50,682 nt of DNA, taken from a virus. The position numbers and the translations under genes were made by a program. This document shows positions 40,798 to 47,824 of the stretch, one piece after another. The stretch covers positions 1 through 50,682 of the IMG/VR virus record IMGVR_UViG_3300042402_007908; one strand, written 5' to 3'. The first letter of the stretch is position 1; every line of letters starts with the position of its first letter. Under the pieces are notes generated by a model. It was not told where the DNA came from. It saw nothing but the letters and a program-made list of their open reading frames with translations, and did not search any database.

Positions 40798-40955
40798 GTG
40801 ATGAAACCAAAGACGGCTTCGGCTTGGACAAGGCACAGCGGCTTCTCGCCAAACGCCTGGGCAAGGAAGAGGAGGAAGCTGAGCAGGCCGCCGGGCTGGA
40901 ACCGCCGTTTCCCTACGTCATGGCGAGGTTTGACGCGGAGTTTTTTGAGCTGTGA
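40794..40955 (+). CDS. Small acidic protein, 53 aa
   Basis: The ATG overlaps the previous stop. The sequence is strongly acidic and helical ('DKAQRLLAKRLGKEEEEAEQAAGLEPP') with a short hydrophobic C-terminus. It is the last gene before the retroelement, so the original tail operon continues after it. The 129 bases between its stop and 41085 hold no other gene that I can support. Confidence 0.5.
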   Translation: MSDETKDGFGLDKAQRLLAKRLGKEEEEAEQAAGLEPPFPYVMARFDAEFFEL

Positions 40956-41084
40956 GTTGGGGCGGGCGTGATACCCCAAGAATCTGACAGTGAAAACATG
41001 TGCTTTTCATCGGAAAAGCTTTACCACCCCCCGGACACTGGCTAGAGGAATTCCAACAAAATCCCATCAAAAGCCTTTTATTGG

Positions 41085-42962
41085 ATGAAAACACTACTTT
41101 CCCCCTCACCCCTGTGGCTCGCGATTGCGTCGCTCGTCCTTCCTCTCAATGCCCAGAGTGTCAGCGAATTGGAATTGGAAAAATCCTCCACCCTCGATGT
41201 TTGGGAAAGCGTCACGATCACCCCCGAGATGATCAGCAGCACAGGCAAGCTTCTGGTGCCAACTTCGGGCTCGCAGGAGTTTTATCGGATGAAAGTGCGC
41301 TTGCTGGAGTCTCCAACGATATCCAACCCACCGCCAGCCACCACTGGGATTGAGGAAGGTGAGTCGGTGACCTTCACGGTGGATTCACAAGGCGAGGGGC
41401 TGACCTACCAGTGGTATCTGGGGCAAAGTGGAGACGACTCACAGCCCATCCAAGACGCCACCTCGCAGACTTACAACACAGGCGCTCTCGCTGAGGACAC
41501 TTCCTACTGGGTGAAGGTCACCAATGTTGCCGGCAGCGTCAATTCTGAGACCGTAGCGGTGACCATCAACCGCCCACCCACGATTGGCAGCCAACCCACT
41601 TCGCAGTCGATAGTAGCAGGCAGCACAGCAACGCTTACGGTCAGCGCCACGGGTTCCGCGCCTTTCACCTACCAGTGGTATCGGGGCAACCTCGGCGCGA
41701 CCACCGCCCCCGTAGGAACCAATTCACCCACCTTCACCACCCCGGCACTCACGGTGACCACGAAGTATTGGGTTAAAATTTCCAACGCGTTTGGCGAAAT
41801 TCAATCCAGCGCGGTCACCGTCACGGTGCAGGCCAACACCGCGCCGACGATCTCCGATATCGCGGCACAAAACATCAGCGCAGATAGTAATACGGGAGCG
41901 ATCGCCTTCACAATTGGCGATGCACAGACCGTGGAGTCCTCCCTCACTCTCAGCGGTAGCAGCAGCAATACGACTCTAGTTCCCAACGCCAGCATTGTCT
42001 TCGGCGGCAGCGGAGCAAGCCGCACGGTCACGGTGACCCCCGCCAGCAGTCAGAGCGGCACGGCGACGATCACGGTGACGGTGAGTGATGGTTCTTTGAC
42101 TGCGAGCGACACCTTTGTTTTGACGGTCGTCAATGCCCCCGCCGCTCCCACCGGCTTCTCCCTCATCCCGGCAGGTAGTTTCACCATGGGCGATGCGTTG
42201 GATGGCGGCGGAGATGCCCATACGGTGAATGTCAGCGCATTTTACATGGCGAAGAACCTAGTGACCAAGGCGGACTGGGATACGGTGCGGACGTGGGCCA
42301 TTAGCAACGGCTACAGCGATCTTGCGGTTGGCGCGGGCAAGGCCAGCAATCATCCGGTGCAGACGGTCACATGGTGGGATGGGGTGAAATACTGCAACGC
42401 CCGCAGCCAGCAGGAGGGGCTGACGCCCGTTTACACGGTGAGTGGCGAGGTGATGAAGACGGGCACCACGGCTCCGGTCGTAAACTGGGCCGCCAACGGC
42501 TACCGCCTGCCGACGGAAGCGGAGTGGGAGAAAGCCGCGCGCGGTGGCTTGAGCGGCAAACGTTTCCCGTGGGGCGACACGATCAGCCAGAGCCAGGCGA
42601 ATTACTACGCTTATAGCGGCTACAGCTACGACCTAAGTGGAGCGGTGAACAACTACCACCCCACCTACGCGACAGGATCGCAGCCTTACACCTCGCCGGT
42701 GGGCAGCTTTGCGGCGAACGGCTACGGACTGTATGACATGGCTGGGAATGTCTGGCAGTGGTGCTGGGATTGGTATGGAAGCTACGATACCAGCTCACCT
42801 ACCGATCCAAGGGGCGTGAGTTCGGGCTCGAACCGGGTGGTCCGGGGCGGCGGTTGGGACTACGACGCGTACTACTGCCGCGTCGCGTACCGCGACGGCA
42901 ACGTCCCGTCCGGCACGGTCAGCGGCGTCGGTTTTCGTGTCGCCCGCAGTTCAGTTCCCTAG
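41085..42962 (+). CDS. DGR target: secreted Ig-like/FGE-fold variable protein
   Basis: A 625-residue protein. Residues 1-24 are a signal peptide. Ig-like domains lie about 78-162 and 163-248 (both with 'YQWY' and 'YWVKV'-type strands), and a cadherin-like beta domain lies at 251-348. Residues 355-625 form a formylglycine-generating-enzyme-type C-lectin fold ('LIPAGSFTMGD', 'YRLPTEAEWEKAARGG', 'GLYDMAGNVWQWCWDWYG'). The end of this fold carries the variable repeat (about 580-622), where DGR targets of this class vary their ligand-binding face. The signal peptide fits an exported surface protein rather than a virion fibre. Confidence 0.92.
   Translation: MKTLLSPSPLWLAIASLVLPLNAQSVSELELEKSSTLDVWESVTITPEMISSTGKLLVPTSGSQEFYRMKVRLLESPTISNPPPATTGIEEGESVTFTVDSQGEGLTYQWYLGQSGDDSQPIQDATSQTYNTGALAEDTSYWVKVTNVAGSVNSETVAVTINRPPTIGSQPTSQSIVAGSTATLTVSATGSAPFTYQWYRGNLGATTAPVGTNSPTFTTPALTVTTKYWVKISNAFGEIQSSAVTVTVQANTAPTISDIAAQNISADSNTGAIAFTIGDAQTVESSLTLSGSSSNTTLVPNASIVFGGSGASRTVTVTPASSQSGTATITVTVSDGSLTASDTFVLTVVNAPAAPTGFSLIPAGSFTMGDALDGGGDAHTVNVSAFYMAKNLVTKADWDTVRTWAISNGYSDLAVGAGKASNHPVQTVTWWDGVKYCNARSQQEGLTPVYTVSGEVMKTGTTAPVVNWAANGYRLPTEAEWEKAARGGLSGKRFPWGDTISQSQANYYAYSGYSYDLSGAVNNYHPTYATGSQPYTSPVGSFAANGYGLYDMAGNVWQWCWDWYGSYDTSSPTDPRGVSSGSNRVVRGGGWDYDAYYCRVAYRDGNVPSGTVSGVGFRVARSSVP
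42822..42949 (+). repeat. DGR variable repeat (VR)
   Basis: 128 nt matching the template repeat at 44624-44751 except at 23 positions. Every mismatch is an A in the template (15 A to G, 8 A to T), and no other base differs. At the protein level 17 residues change, mostly from Asn codons (AAC) to Asp, Tyr, Gly, Val or Ser. The last 29 nt are identical to the template and fit the initiation-of-mutagenic-homology segment; non-A differences start right after. Confidence 0.97.
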
Positions 42963-43101
42963 AGCCAGCAGCAGCGGAGCGAACGGAACGAAGTGGCCAA
43001 GGGAGGGACGACCGCAGGCAACGCAGTGAAGGGAGCGGAGCGGGAGAGTAATTTTGAATTTTGAATGATGGATTGTGAATGAAAGAGAATTGGCTTGGGT
43101 T

Positions 43102-43134
43102 GCAGGGGCGTAGCCCCTGCCGGCGATTTTTTTT
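43102..43134 (+). terminator. Intrinsic terminator after the target gene
   Basis: Perfect 8-bp stem GCAGGGGC (43102-43109) with GCCCCTGC (43113-43120) and loop GTA, followed after a few bases by a run of eight T (43127-43134). It separates the target transcript from the HRDC and reverse transcriptase genes. Confidence 0.85.
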
Positions 43135-43156
43135 GGAAAACGGAGTTTAGCGATTG

Positions 43157-43624
43157 ATGCCATTTGAATTTATCCAGATCCCAGCGAACGGGCAGGGCAG
43201 CGCGAAGGAGGAGCTGAATCGGCTGTTGCGCGGCGGGCGGATTGCGTCGGTGAAGAAGGAATTTGTTTCCAATGGGGAGGATTCGTTCTGGGCGTTTTGC
43301 ATTGAGTATCTGGATGGCACGCTGGGTAATGATCGCAGCCGCAGTGGTGGTAGTGCCGCGCCGAAGGTGGATTACAGGGAAATCCTCAGCGAGGGAGATT
43401 TTGCGCGGTTTGTAAAACTGCGGGATTTGCGCAAGGCGCTCTCGGAAAAGGAGGCGATCCCTGCTTACAGCATTTTCACCAACGAGCAGTTGGCGGCGAT
43501 GGTGACAGGCAAGGTGGATTCCCTGACAAGTATGAGTGCCATTCAGGGGATTGGTGCGGCAAGGCTAGAAAAATACGGTAAAGCCTTCCTCGCACTTATG
43601 GCGGAGAAGGGAGGCCCGGCGTGA
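43157..43624 (+). CDS. HRDC-domain DGR accessory protein
   Basis: A 155-residue protein that lies between target and reverse transcriptase and overlaps the latter by GTGA. The C-terminal half has an HRDC domain: 'FVKLRDLRKALSEKEAIPAYSIFTNEQLAAMV' and 'TSMSAIQGIGAARLEKYGKAFLAL', a helix-hairpin-type nucleic-acid-binding fold. HRDC proteins replace Avd as accessory factors in some DGRs. A TTG at 43154 is a possible earlier start. Confidence 0.85.
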   Translation: MPFEFIQIPANGQGSAKEELNRLLRGGRIASVKKEFVSNGEDSFWAFCIEYLDGTLGNDRSRSGGSAAPKVDYREILSEGDFARFVKLRDLRKALSEKEAIPAYSIFTNEQLAAMVTGKVDSLTSMSAIQGIGAARLEKYGKAFLALMAEKGGPA

Positions 43625-44796
43625 AACGTGTGGGGAACTTGTGGCCGGCCATCACCGAGCGTGAAAATCTGGTAAGGGCGTTCCATCAGGCGGCCCGAGG
43701 CAAGCGCTGGAAGCTGGAGGTGCGGCGGTTTTCTGAAAATCTGGATCGGCGCTTGGAGCGCCTGCGCGATGAGTTGCTTGATCGGAGCTTTGAGACAGGC
43801 CGCTTTCATGTTTTTGAGGTGCATGACCCCAAGCGCCGGACGATTCACGCTGCGCATTTTCAAGAGCGGGTGTTCCATCACGCGTTGATGAATCTGTGTG
43901 AGCCTGTGTTGGAAAAGCAGTCGATCTTCCACAGCTACGCCTGCCGCAAGGGAAAAGGAAGGCTGGAGGCGATCGGGGCAGCCGAGAAGGCGGCACGGGC
44001 CTGCGCCTGGCATCTGAAGTTGGATATCCGGAAGTATTTCGAGTCTGTGCCGCATGAGTTTTTGATTTCCAGATTGCACCGGGTTTTCAAAGATCCGGAG
44101 GTTTTGTATTGGCTGGAGAAATTGCTGCGGGGGCACCGGTGCGAAGAAGGACGCGGCCTTCCCATCGGCAGCCTGACGAGCCAGCATCTGGCAAATTTTT
44201 ACCTCGGGCCGCTGGATCGGTTCTGCCATGGGCAGCAGACGGTGAAGGCGTATTGTCGCTACATGGACGACTTCGTGTGCTGGGGCGATGACAAAGCAGC
44301 GATGGTTGCTCTGGGCTGGGAGATCCAGCGCTACGTGGAGGCGGATCTGGGCCTGGCGCTCAAGCACCCGCCATCGCCTCAGCCAACATCGCGTGGCATG
44401 GATTTTCTTGGGTACCGCATTTTCCCACGTCACACGGCGCTGAACCGCCGTAGTAAGTTACGCTACCGGCGGCGGCTCACCACCCTAGCCAAGCTGCATG
44501 ACCGCGGTGTGCTCAACGAGAGCCAGGTGCAACAACGTCTCACGGCGCTGACTGCATTTGTGCTTCCGGCAAGCTCGCACGCATTCCGCCGCAGTGTGAT
44601 GGAAAACCATCGGATGACGGCCATCGGGCACGAACCGGGTGAACCGGGGCGGCAGTTGGAACAACAACGCGAACAACTGCCGCGTCGCGAACCGCAACAA
44701 CAACAACCCGTCCAACACGAACAACAACATCGGTTTTCGTGTCGCCCGCAGCTCAGTCCCGGAGAGTCGGATGGCTCTCTGATGAGCAGGAACTGA
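43621..44796 (+). CDS. DGR reverse transcriptase
   Basis: A 391-residue frame with GTG start. Reverse-transcriptase motifs are present: '[14 protein letters not shown]' (motif A, Asp135), '[17 protein letters not shown]' (IGxxxSQ, 182-188, diagnostic for DGR enzymes) and 'YCRYMDDFV' with YMDD at 214-217. It makes error-prone cDNA, mutating at template adenines, and installs it in the variable repeat. From about residue 335 the frame is encoded by the template repeat itself, read in a different phase (Gln/Glu/Arg-rich tail). The functional domain ends before that. Confidence 0.95.
44624..44751 (+). repeat. DGR template repeat (TR)
   Basis: 128 nt rich in AAC codons when read in the target frame (an '[16 protein letters not shown]' style stretch). 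It is colinear with the variable repeat without gaps. It overlaps the 3' end of the reverse transcriptase frame, which reads it in another phase. Only A positions differ from the VR. Confidence 0.97.
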
Positions 44797-44841
44797 ACCG
44801 GCCGTCATCCCGCTCATGCCCGCTATGCGGATATGACAAAC

Positions 44842-44916
44842 CCCAAAAAAGCTCGTCCGCCGTGAGTAGTCCGGTGGATTCCGGCACGAAAACCGCGGGC
44901 GGGCTACTTTTTTGGG
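44842..44916 (+). terminator. Long-looped inverted repeat downstream of TR
   Basis: CCCAAAAAAG (44842-44851) pairs perfectly with CTTTTTTGGG (44907-44916). The 55-nt loop has further short GC complements. The T-run on the right arm makes it a candidate bidirectional terminator, or part of the structured template RNA. The stretch 44797-45118 otherwise holds no supported gene; a 21-codon frame (45027-45092) is present but has no features. Confidence 0.55.
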
Positions 44917-45118
44917 TGTGATGTTTGGTAGATGCATTCACCCGCAGCATTCAGATATTGGCATGGGACGCTTGGAATCAGATCAGGCAATGATATTTTG
45001 CAAGTGAGGGAGTATCTGTTTTCGGCATGGGTTATGAGTTGATTGGCTTTGATTCGGAAAAAGGCAGCAACGTTTTCCAGCCCGTGAGTTGACGCGGCAG
45101 GCATGGCAGGACATCCCC

Positions 45119-47824
45119 ATGCAAGCCACCGTTTACGCCGATCTGACCAACCGCAGACTGACATCCACGCTTGGCGGCGGCGCGATTTCATTCCCGGCCT
45201 TCGTGCAGGGCGACAAGGTGCGCATCGGCCTGCGCTTTGCGGAATCCATCGAAGGCTCGCCCGTCGAGGTCCAGAAAACCGTCACCCATATCCGCGCCTC
45301 CATCGGGTTTGTCGATGCGCGGCCTGCGAGCGGCAGTTTCATCCTCACCGCCAATGGCATCGACACCGCGCCAATCTCCCATGATGCCACGGCGGGAACG
45401 GTGCAAGCCGCCCTGGTCGAAGCGGGATTGCCGGACGTGGTGGTGAGCAAGCAGGACGGCTCGTGGATCATCTCCACCGGCGGGGCGGAAATCAACCTCA
45501 CCGGCACATCCGCCGGGGGATTGCTCACTGAACTTCGCCCTGTCTCGTTCGTGCGCATCCGCTCGACGCAGGTGGCCGGGCAATATCGCCATGAAATCCG
45601 TCTCGTGCAGGCACCGCTCGCCTCCACCGCGAGTTTCGAAACCATCGTGCCGCCCGCGCCAACCATCACCGAGGTGCAGGAGGGCGGATCATCGGCAACC
45701 ACCATCTGGCCCGAAATCCAGGCGCTCAAAATCCAGCCGACCTTCAAGGGCACCTATCAGCTTCGCCGTGGGTTCAGGAAGACCCGCGAGTTGTCCGTGG
45801 ACGACGGCCCCGAGGAAATCCAGGACGCGCTCTCGGTGCTCGCCGATGATGAAGGCTCGTTTTCGGTCACCAACCCGGCGACCCACATCGCCCACATCAC
45901 CTTCAACGGTTCGATGGCCGGCATTGACCAGGACTTGCTCGAAGTCGCCGTGTTTTCCGCGCCGCCCGGCGACCCGACCGTCATCCTCGACCTCAACACC
46001 GCCGAGATTGCCGCCGCCCTGCGCGGTGCCGCCGAACTCAAGCCCGACTTGGAAATCGAAGTCGCCATTCAGGATGAGAACGATCCCAACAAGACCCACA
46101 CGCTCACGCCGTTCCGCGCTCCAATCACCCTGATTCGCGAACTCAACTGGGAGGGACTCGAAACCGCCGCCAACATCGACTGGCTGCGGCCGCCCTACGG
46201 CAGAAGTTATGTGCCGTTCACCCCCGACCAGATCATCACCGGCTCGCAGCATCATGTCAGCGTGATCGGCGACGGCGGCAATCAGGAGTTCACCATCAGC
46301 CACAACCTCGGCACCCGCGACCTGCATGTCACACTGCGGCGCAATGGCGGCGACCTGGCCATCATCCAACCGGTGGCTGTCACACTCGACAGCGAGGACG
46401 ATCTAACTGTCACATTCGCGTCCGCCCCCGCCTTGAACGAGTTCGTCGCCATCATCTCCACCGCAGGTCCGGTGAGCGCGTTCCAGGCCCACGGCCACAC
46501 CATTGCCCAGATCGACGGCCTGCAACTGATGCTCGACGACCTGGGCGGCCGGGTGGAAACCCTCGAATCGTTCATCCCGTCCGGCTCGCTCGGCATGTCC
46601 GAATCCAAGGACCAAACGATCATCGCCTCGTGGGAACTGCCCGAACTGTTCGAGGTGTTCCCGACACGAGCCAAGGTCGAAGCCAAGGACGTTCCTTCGA
46701 TCAAGCCCGGGGAGCTTCCGCGTGTCGGCGGCCTGCTGCCTGCGGTTTATCCCGGGCCGGTGCTGCGCGATTATTTTGTTCAGACCCCTGCGGGCCACCT
46801 CGGGACCAACCCCGCCGACTATGGCAAGCTCGTCTATTTCGGCGACGTGGACGGCTCGCACGTCTGGCACGGCGAATACAACTCCTATGATGATGTCACG
46901 GGCGAAGTCACGGAAGGCACGACGATTTACCGAGACAATGCCGCCTCCCGCTGGGTGCTGAGCGGAATCGTTCCGGGGGGTGAAACGCCTCTTATGTTTG
47001 TCATCAACGGCCCGGTTTATGCTGTCCCTCCGGGTGGCGGTAACGGCCCGCCCGAGTCACCTCCGCTTACCGGATGGGCGTCCGGGTTCGCACTGGCCTA
47101 CGCTCCGCTGGTCTTCGATGACCCCAACGGACTGCCATCTCTACCGGACGCCGGGGTGATCTATGGCCACTACAACACCGGCGTCGATCTGACCCTGCCG
47201 GGCTATCTCGGCCGCCGCTCCACCAAGCTCGAAGCACCGGCGACCTACACCCACGACGGGCGCGGGTTCTATCAAGTCGAGCCGATGAACGCGGACGAGC
47301 TGGTGTTCTATCCCAAAGACTTCGAGCGCGAGCTGTTCCGCATCCATGTGAACGAAAAACAACTGCGGCTCGGCAAAACGCTGCGGCTGGATTTTTCGTT
47401 CGTCGCGGCGGTTTTCAAATCCAACACCTCCGTCCAGTGGGGCGTGGCCATTGACATCGGCCTGCCATCCGCTGATCCCGCGAGCCCGAGCAACATCGCG
47501 GATGTCACGTTTCTGCCGCCCTCGCTCGATCACACCTTCATGCTGACGGCCGTGCCATCGAGCCATAACTTCGGCCTGCGTGTGCAGCGCAAGATCGTCG
47601 ATTCCGTGGATACCTGTGTGGTGGACCGCATCATTTACGGGGCGATTGAAACCACTCCTACCGCCCTCACTTCCGCCAACTTCATCGTGCGCGGCCGACT
47701 GGTGCGCTTCGACACCGACAACCACGAAACCGATCCGCGCGGCCTGGTCGCATTCCACGGACTGAAAGCCACGCTGGTCGAAGGCGGAGATGAATCCGAA
47801 TTCGGCAAAGCCACCATCCAATAA
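45119..47824 (+). CDS. Large tail/tip or fibre protein, 901 aa
   Basis: A 901-residue protein that resumes the tail operon after the retroelement. The N-terminal part ('QATVYADLTNRRLTSTLGGGAISFPAFVQGDKVRIGLRF') carries a beta-rich module that recurs in the genes that follow. Later parts have 'TITEVQEGGSSATTIWPEIQALKIQPTFKGTYQLRRGF' and a receptor-binding-like C-terminus. I chose ATG 45119 over an upstream TTG (45089). It is most likely a tail-tip or side-fibre protein that contacts the host. Confidence 0.65.
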   Translation: MQATVYADLTNRRLTSTLGGGAISFPAFVQGDKVRIGLRFAESIEGSPVEVQKTVTHIRASIGFVDARPASGSFILTANGIDTAPISHDATAGTVQAALVEAGLPDVVVSKQDGSWIISTGGAEINLTGTSAGGLLTELRPVSFVRIRSTQVAGQYRHEIRLVQAPLASTASFETIVPPAPTITEVQEGGSSATTIWPEIQALKIQPTFKGTYQLRRGFRKTRELSVDDGPEEIQDALSVLADDEGSFSVTNPATHIAHITFNGSMAGIDQDLLEVAVFSAPPGDPTVILDLNTAEIAAALRGAAELKPDLEIEVAIQDENDPNKTHTLTPFRAPITLIRELNWEGLETAANIDWLRPPYGRSYVPFTPDQIITGSQHHVSVIGDGGNQEFTISHNLGTRDLHVTLRRNGGDLAIIQPVAVTLDSEDDLTVTFASAPALNEFVAIISTAGPVSAFQAHGHTIAQIDGLQLMLDDLGGRVETLESFIPSGSLGMSESKDQTIIASWELPELFEVFPTRAKVEAKDVPSIKPGELPRVGGLLPAVYPGPVLRDYFVQTPAGHLGTNPADYGKLVYFGDVDGSHVWHGEYNSYDDVTGEVTEGTTIYRDNAASRWVLSGIVPGGETPLMFVINGPVYAVPPGGGNGPPESPPLTGWASGFALAYAPLVFDDPNGLPSLPDAGVIYGHYNTGVDLTLPGYLGRRSTKLEAPATYTHDGRGFYQVEPMNADELVFYPKDFERELFRIHVNEKQLRLGKTLRLDFSFVAAVFKSNTSVQWGVAIDIGLPSADPASPSNIADVTFLPPSLDHTFMLTAVPSSHNFGLRVQRKIVDSVDTCVVDRIIYGAIETTPTALTSANFIVRGRLVRFDTDNHETDPRGLVAFHGLKATLVEGGDESEFGKATIQ

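Follow-up and report, generated by a model that had tools for sequence, protein, structure and literature searches.

An HRDC-type diversity-generating retroelement of likely cellular lineage, carried as cargo by a probable Verrucomicrobiales phage

In catalogues, the diversity-generating retroelements (DGRs) of phages figure mainly as diversifiers of tail fibres, and those of bacteria as diversifiers of surface proteins. What, then, does a DGR do when one cassette is found in both settings? We address this question for IMG/VR virus record IMGVR_UViG_3300042402_007908, the whole of which (50,682 nt) was analyzed and is called the window below. Its cassette comprises a target gene ending in a variable repeat (VR), a gene for an HRDC-domain accessory protein, a reverse transcriptase (RT) gene and a template repeat (TR). 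We consider it probable that the cassette is an HRDC-type DGR which is complete, works in nature, belongs to a cellular (Verrucomicrobiota) lineage and rides as cargo in a tailed, likely temperate Verrucomicrobiales phage; its target is most likely displayed on the surface of the lysogenic cell instead of on the virion.

An earlier note, made by inspection of the nucleotide sequence, had described a complete DGR with target, HRDC, RT and template in that order, a variable domain of FGE type, and repeats that differ only at template adenines. The Pfam matches and coordinates bear out this order (Table 1), the variable domain matches FGE-sulfatase (E=5e-53), and our base-by-base recount of the repeats agrees exactly: over 128 nt, with 0 gaps, 23 of 23 differences fall at a template A (A>G at 15 sites, A>T at 8 and A>C at 0) and 17 residues are altered. 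The TR contains 37 A among its 128 sites, and the probability that 23 randomly placed differences would all fall on these is 4.4e-16. Sixteen of the differences lie at codon position 1, seven at position 2 and none at position 3. The lack of A>C is only mildly unusual, as this class makes up ~13% of the substitutions pooled across the order (59/452, one locus being counted twice; chance p about 0.04 for 0/23); an error bias in AAC contexts is known for the RT of Bordetella phage BPP-1 (PMC12875486). Searched on both strands, the window contained no second VR, and an exact scan of IMG/VR for VRs of the window template returned none except its own. Just past the repeat core, DGRs carry a difference between the initiation of mutagenic homing sequence (IMH) and its counterpart, IMH*. 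The corresponding stretches of the window (TTCAGTTCCCTAGAG at the VR end and CTCAGTCCCGGAGAG at the TR end) differ at four sites, none at a template A; since these lie past the 128 nt and represent the expected IMH/IMH* difference, they do not breach the adenine rule. The putative IMH and IMH* read TTCAG.. and CTCAG.., respectively, in the window, in the related loci L022 and L023, and in the remote targets of these.

The note had also claimed recent activity, a claim on which sister copies in other genomes bear. The closest of these, L022, lies on a contig of an Akkermansiaceae metagenome-assembled genome (MAG) among chromosomal genes (encoding an RlmH-type SPOUT methyltransferase and an M23 peptidase) and matches the window over 3843 nt, without a gap and at 94% identity, in a region confined to 41082-44924. 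Outside of the VR and TR, 215/3587 cassette sites differ (6.0%), and the TR differs at 1/128; the VR, in contrast, differs at 19/37 template-A sites and at 0/91 others (Fisher p=7.5e-14 for its A sites against the cassette background, and 8e-13 against its non-A sites). A third copy, L154, occupies this phage site in another genome, G225, and departs from the window TR at 21/37 A and 1/91 non-A sites, with the region overall 88% identical to the window; past the HRDC start this copy joins chromosomal genes, and that part was treated as unreliable. These three genomes carry different products of nearly one template. The TR/VR pairs that L022 and L023 themselves possess follow the same rule, with 20/20 differences at template A in L022 and, over the 128-nt core, 19/19 in L023. 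Read mapping had been proposed as the check; made across genomes instead of reads, the comparison finds VRs that vary at template A while the TR is nearly fixed, and neither of the outcomes named as contrary (non-A variation, or an identical VR everywhere) was seen among the genomes compared. Because a 94% identical chromosomal cassette has a differently rewritten target, the machine has worked in nature, and the sister copies are a natural read-out of change at template-A sites only.

As one VR per genome is a snapshot, the phage copy might still be decayed or passive, no longer working and with a VR set earlier in a chromosome. We regard this as improbable, because VR and TR are identical at 91/91 non-A sites while the flanks differ by 6% (L022) and 12% (L154), and because the RT and HRDC frames are intact and, to judge from 29 synonymous versus 10 non-synonymous codon changes in the RT core between the window and L022, under purifying selection. 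The same two cassettes contain, amid their 6% divergence, six identical runs of 129-382 nt, which indicate recombination between cassette lineages.

Every DGR feature that can be tested in sequence is present, namely the TR/VR adenine rule, an RT, a C-lectin/FGE target, an accessory gene and an IMH/IMH* difference. The HRDC gene is kept alongside the DGR in L022-L027 and in relatives; the cassette has no Avd accessory, HRDC serving instead, and no further gene. The RT has an intact catalytic motif (YMDD and an SQ-type motif, as read in the sequence), matches the RT family phrog_1423 of PHROG over residues 1-329 (E=1.7e-97), and has 8ub7 as its closest solved structure (E=3e-45). The template and its end (44624-44766) overlap, in another frame, the last part of the open RT frame (43621-44796), starting 17 nt past the end of the conserved RT core. 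We considered this overlap as a coding feature and rejected that reading, since 5/5 post-core codon changes between the window and L022 are non-synonymous and the RT stop of relatives falls before, in or after the TR; the overlap is probably incidental. Promoter and terminator scans yielded results near chance level.

The window contains terminase, portal, capsid, protease and tape-measure genes and thus derives from a tailed phage. Its terminase has matches in 38/387 genomes of the order Verrucomicrobiales (E<=1e-50), at up to 95% identity, and the carrier is probably a temperate phage of this order. In the sister phages L060, L061, L063, L064, L065 and L072 the genes that flank the DGR are adjacent, with a 182-bp empty junction, and in L058, L059, L062 and L067-L070 unrelated cargo stands between them; because the site is empty or differently occupied in sister phages, it is a variable one, and the DGR is its cargo in the window. 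One further relative, L057, has a target with a VR, and without an RT, at this site. A 14-nt sequence, GTGAGTTGACGCGG, is single in empty sites and stands on both cargo borders in several phages, the left copy of the window (GTGAGTTGGGGCGG) having two mismatches.

The sharp edges of a cassette that is 94% identical to a chromosomal one could also result from an assembly chimera, in which a chromosomal DGR contig was misjoined to a phage contig, and the right-hand junction, known from the window assembly alone, would fit such an error. We think a chimera very unlikely. Three assemblies made independently (L057 from IMG/VR, L149 from genome G179 and L154 from G225) show the same left junction, which runs from the phage gene over 130 nt of intergenic DNA to the start of the target; the border repeats match those of other cargo, and the 6% difference from L022 means that the two cassettes do not come from one read population.

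In a phylogenetic tree of RTs, the window groups with DGR RTs of Verrucomicrobiota (SH-aLRT 98-100), apart from those of BPP-1 and of Vibrio and Aeromonas phages, which places it in a cellular, non-BPP-1 clade. The target contains the Pfam domains Ig_7 and Ig_3 (immunoglobulin (Ig)-like) ahead of FGE-sulfatase, and the VR falls at its C-terminal end, where the C-lectin/FGE-type fold was assigned by sequence; a phmmer search of the PDB with this end matched FGE enzymes and Treponema TvpA (2y3c, E=1.4e-28). The N-terminus, MKTLLSPSPLWLAIASLVLPLNAQS, resembles a signal peptide and is common, by alignment, to targets carried by phages (L057, L154) and by chromosomes (L022, L136). Because of this shared N-terminus, the cellular RT clade and the cargo context, the target is probably exported, and we clearly favor a role in display outside the cell over one as a tail fibre.

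The competing possibility is tropism switching of the BPP-1 type, in which the target would belong to the virion, as a tail or decoration protein, and its variants would bind different hosts. Ig-like domains are common on virions, the genome is that of a phage, the neighbors of the cassette are tail-region genes, and the Ig part of the target has weak PHROG matches to tail and Hoc-like proteins, including a link to the phage tail family phrog_3995. In addition, most of the published DGR targets encoded by viruses are proteins of the tail (PMC8144416). We nevertheless consider tropism switching unlikely here, given that the signal-peptide-like N-terminus is common with chromosomal orthologues, that the whole cassette also occurs in a chromosome without phage genes, that sister phages leave the site empty or fill it with unrelated cargo, and that the RT falls outside the BPP-1 branch. 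Besides the right-hand junction, several observations weigh against our main reading: the phrog_3995 link and a cargo site between tail-region genes make a virion role conceivable; the call of export rests on our reading of the N-terminus; the AlphaFold prediction of the target was unusable (mean pLDDT 49.7); and no integrase was seen in the window, where no search was aimed at integrases, so that a temperate life is deduced from relatives in host genomes.

If the enzymology resembles that of BPP-1, the RT, with HRDC as accessory, would copy TR RNA into cDNA with errors at A, and the target gene would receive this cDNA at its 3' end in place of the VR. The IMH, and probably also a conserved element 3' of the VR, would direct homing; the TR would be spared, since both its end (IMH*) and what lies downstream differ from the VR side. 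The product would be an Ig-like-domain protein that presents a hypervariable FGE/C-lectin face, most likely at the lysogen cell surface.

Several of these features are already known, including the HRDC accessory, FGE targets, remote and orphan targets and transfer between genomes (PMC4891356, PMC8144416). The HRDC-type DGR of Treponema denticola (TvpA; PMC4891356), for which remote targets were described, as were strains that lack an RT yet retain targets, resembles that of the window in its overlapping HRDC and RT genes and its FGE/C-lectin-fold target. It is, however, chromosomal and has its accessory gene between TR and RT, whereas the window has the order target-HRDC-RT-TR, with the TR inside the RT frame, as phage cargo. 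With the DGR of BPP-1 (brt/avd/mtd) the window shares an RT (36% identical to brt), A-specific mutagenesis and the IMH/IMH* difference, but it has HRDC and not Avd, a target that is not Mtd-like, a TR after and not before the RT, an RT of another clade, and a predicted hairpin 3' of the TR instead of the VR. The Legionella pneumophila DGR, located on a horizontally acquired island as cited in PMC4891356, is mobile-element-borne with a cell-surface-displayed target, as proposed for the window; compared by that description, carrier, target and lineage differ. The global catalogue of DGRs (Roux et al. 2021, PMC8144416) reported transfer of DGRs between genomes, and found signal peptides or membrane anchors on cellular targets and viral targets of tail type; the window departs from this pattern, with a cellular-type target in a phage genome and a near-identical chromosomal sister. 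New here are the phage and chromosome sister copies, the cargo status, the putatively exported target of cellular type and the candidate cis elements. Since the cassette is present in phage and chromosome at 94% identity and as a mosaic, movement of cellular DGRs on phages becomes directly studiable; this cassette appears to have passed between viruses and likely hosts.

Table 1. Positions of features of the DGR cassette, its cargo site and related inserts
Feature	Position	Strand	Basis
Phage gene left of cargo site, 350 aa	39745..40797	+	sister-phage comparison
Small gene after left phage gene	40795-40954		
Left border direct repeat GTGAGTTGGGGCGG, 2 mismatches	40952..40965	+	sister-phage comparison
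Cassette limits: 94% identical, ungapped, to chromosomal L022:3462-7304; similarity ends at both edges	41082..44924	+	alignment
DGR target, 625 aa: signal-peptide-like N-terminus, two Ig-like domains, linker, C-terminal FGE/C-lectin-type domain	41085..42962	+	Pfam, PDB phmmer, orthologue alignment
Putative signal peptide MKTLLSPSPLWLAIASLVLPLNAQ	41085..41156	+	read from sequence; kept in orthologues
VR	42822..42949	+	base-by-base comparison with TR
IMH-like VR end	42950..42964	+	sequence comparison
Conserved ~95-nt element directly 3' of VR	42950..43045	+	behind VRs of relatives
HRDC-domain accessory, 156 aa; start possibly ATG 43157; 4-nt overlap with RT start	43154..43624	+	Pfam E=1.5e-14
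DGR RT frame, 391 aa, with YMDD and IGSLTSQ motifs; conserved core up to about 44607	43621..44796	+	Pfam RVT_1 E=1.1e-17
TR, within RT frame	44624..44751	+	base-by-base comparison with VR
IMH*-like TR end	44752..44766	+	sequence comparison
Putative hairpin 3' of TR, CGGAGAGTC-GGAT-GGCTCTCTG	44760..44781	+	compensatory changes in four hand-picked relatives
Right border direct repeat GTGAGTTGACGCGG	45084..45097	+	sister-phage comparison
Phage gene right of cargo site	45119..47824	+	sister-phage comparison; weak PHROG head-decoration/tail matches
Duplications flanking sister-prophage inserts	L148:6529-6857/11777-12105; L151:8996-9240/10000-10244; L149 (reverse complement):1396-1474/5886-5964		

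The conserved ~95-nt element recurs at 81-100% identity behind the VRs of scattered targets in related genomes, including some whose proteins bear no other likeness to the target, and it is absent behind the TR. Three matches are less clear: in G374 C14 the element follows a poorly matching VR, the match in G004 is weaker (73%), and that in G003 C191 covers 22 nt. As an independent check, a scan of IMG/VR for a 29-nt core of the element gave ten contigs; in 9/10 the core is preceded, at a distance of 22-24 nt, by a VR-like FGE end; the stored stretch of the tenth stops short, yet the same contig shows a VR. Folded as DNA, 42950-43045 was no better than its shuffles (z=+0.67, +0.30) and contained no GC hairpin with GRNA loop of the BPP-1 type; a helix placed on the element alignment did not fit, and Rfam gave no match. 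In the hairpin behind the TR, 25/25 pair cells of 5 pairs are kept over five sequences, and three pairs have changed on both sides; because the rows were picked by hand, a covarying hairpin behind several templates is no more than suggestive. Together, the two are concrete candidates for cis elements of the HRDC class of DGRs, for which we found no functional study of such elements in the literature searched.

Other inserts were observed in sister prophages. For a leucine-rich repeat protein, a 123-aa PIN/DUF5615-like gene and a second DGR, 79-329 bp of the neighboring phage gene are directly duplicated on the two sides of the insert, a pattern that would fit entry by single crossover or duplication. 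The MAG that contains L022 also holds a sister prophage with other cargo (L148), and L059 and L148 both carry, at the same site, a 235-aa protein (MSPQPPGSPDSGKPG...) as cargo. The sister prophage L149 (G179:C143) has two DGR-related loci. One is a target at the cargo site of the window, inside which the contig ends; the other is a complete DGR inserted in an upstream gene, with RT and HRDC 43-45% identical and on a different branch of the RT tree.

Remote and orphan targets were also identified. The L022 genome (G001) has two remote FGE targets (L136:8071-9321 and L137:5364-6206), each with the element 3' of its VR. Rewriting of these in trans by the TR of G001 was considered and rejected as a recent event, as 7/92 (L136) and 15/92 (L137) non-A sites mismatch; it is either not recent or involves only a partial 3' tract. 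The related phages L186-L191, L193 and L194 have an FGE target with VR and conserved element near the tape-measure gene and no RT on the contig. A scan for RTs found none on the target-bearing viral contigs, many of which are short, so that an RT may lie off-contig. The VRs of L186 and L187, on short contigs with flanks about 77% identical, differ at 28/37 template-A and 3/91 other sites, and within each group of these phages the VR protein sequences are unchanged across contigs.

A broader reading, which we put forward tentatively and hold to be less probable than not, is that phages of this family shuttle cellular DGRs and targets, picking up full cassettes or lone targets at several phage sites and recombining them with host chromosomes, and that a DGR elsewhere in the host, guided by the ~95-nt element, acts in trans on those phage targets that have no RT of their own. 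The orphan targets of L186 and L187, which vary at A sites, and the distant second DGR in a sister prophage gene lend it support.

Many further FGE matches (L079-L083, L088-L090 and L094) lack a VR signature, resemble ordinary FGE proteins of phages and were set aside. The related phage contigs L074 and L078 are ~88-94% identical save for ~100 nt at the VR position of an FGE gene, where their alignment breaks down; this gene is likely to be another active target.

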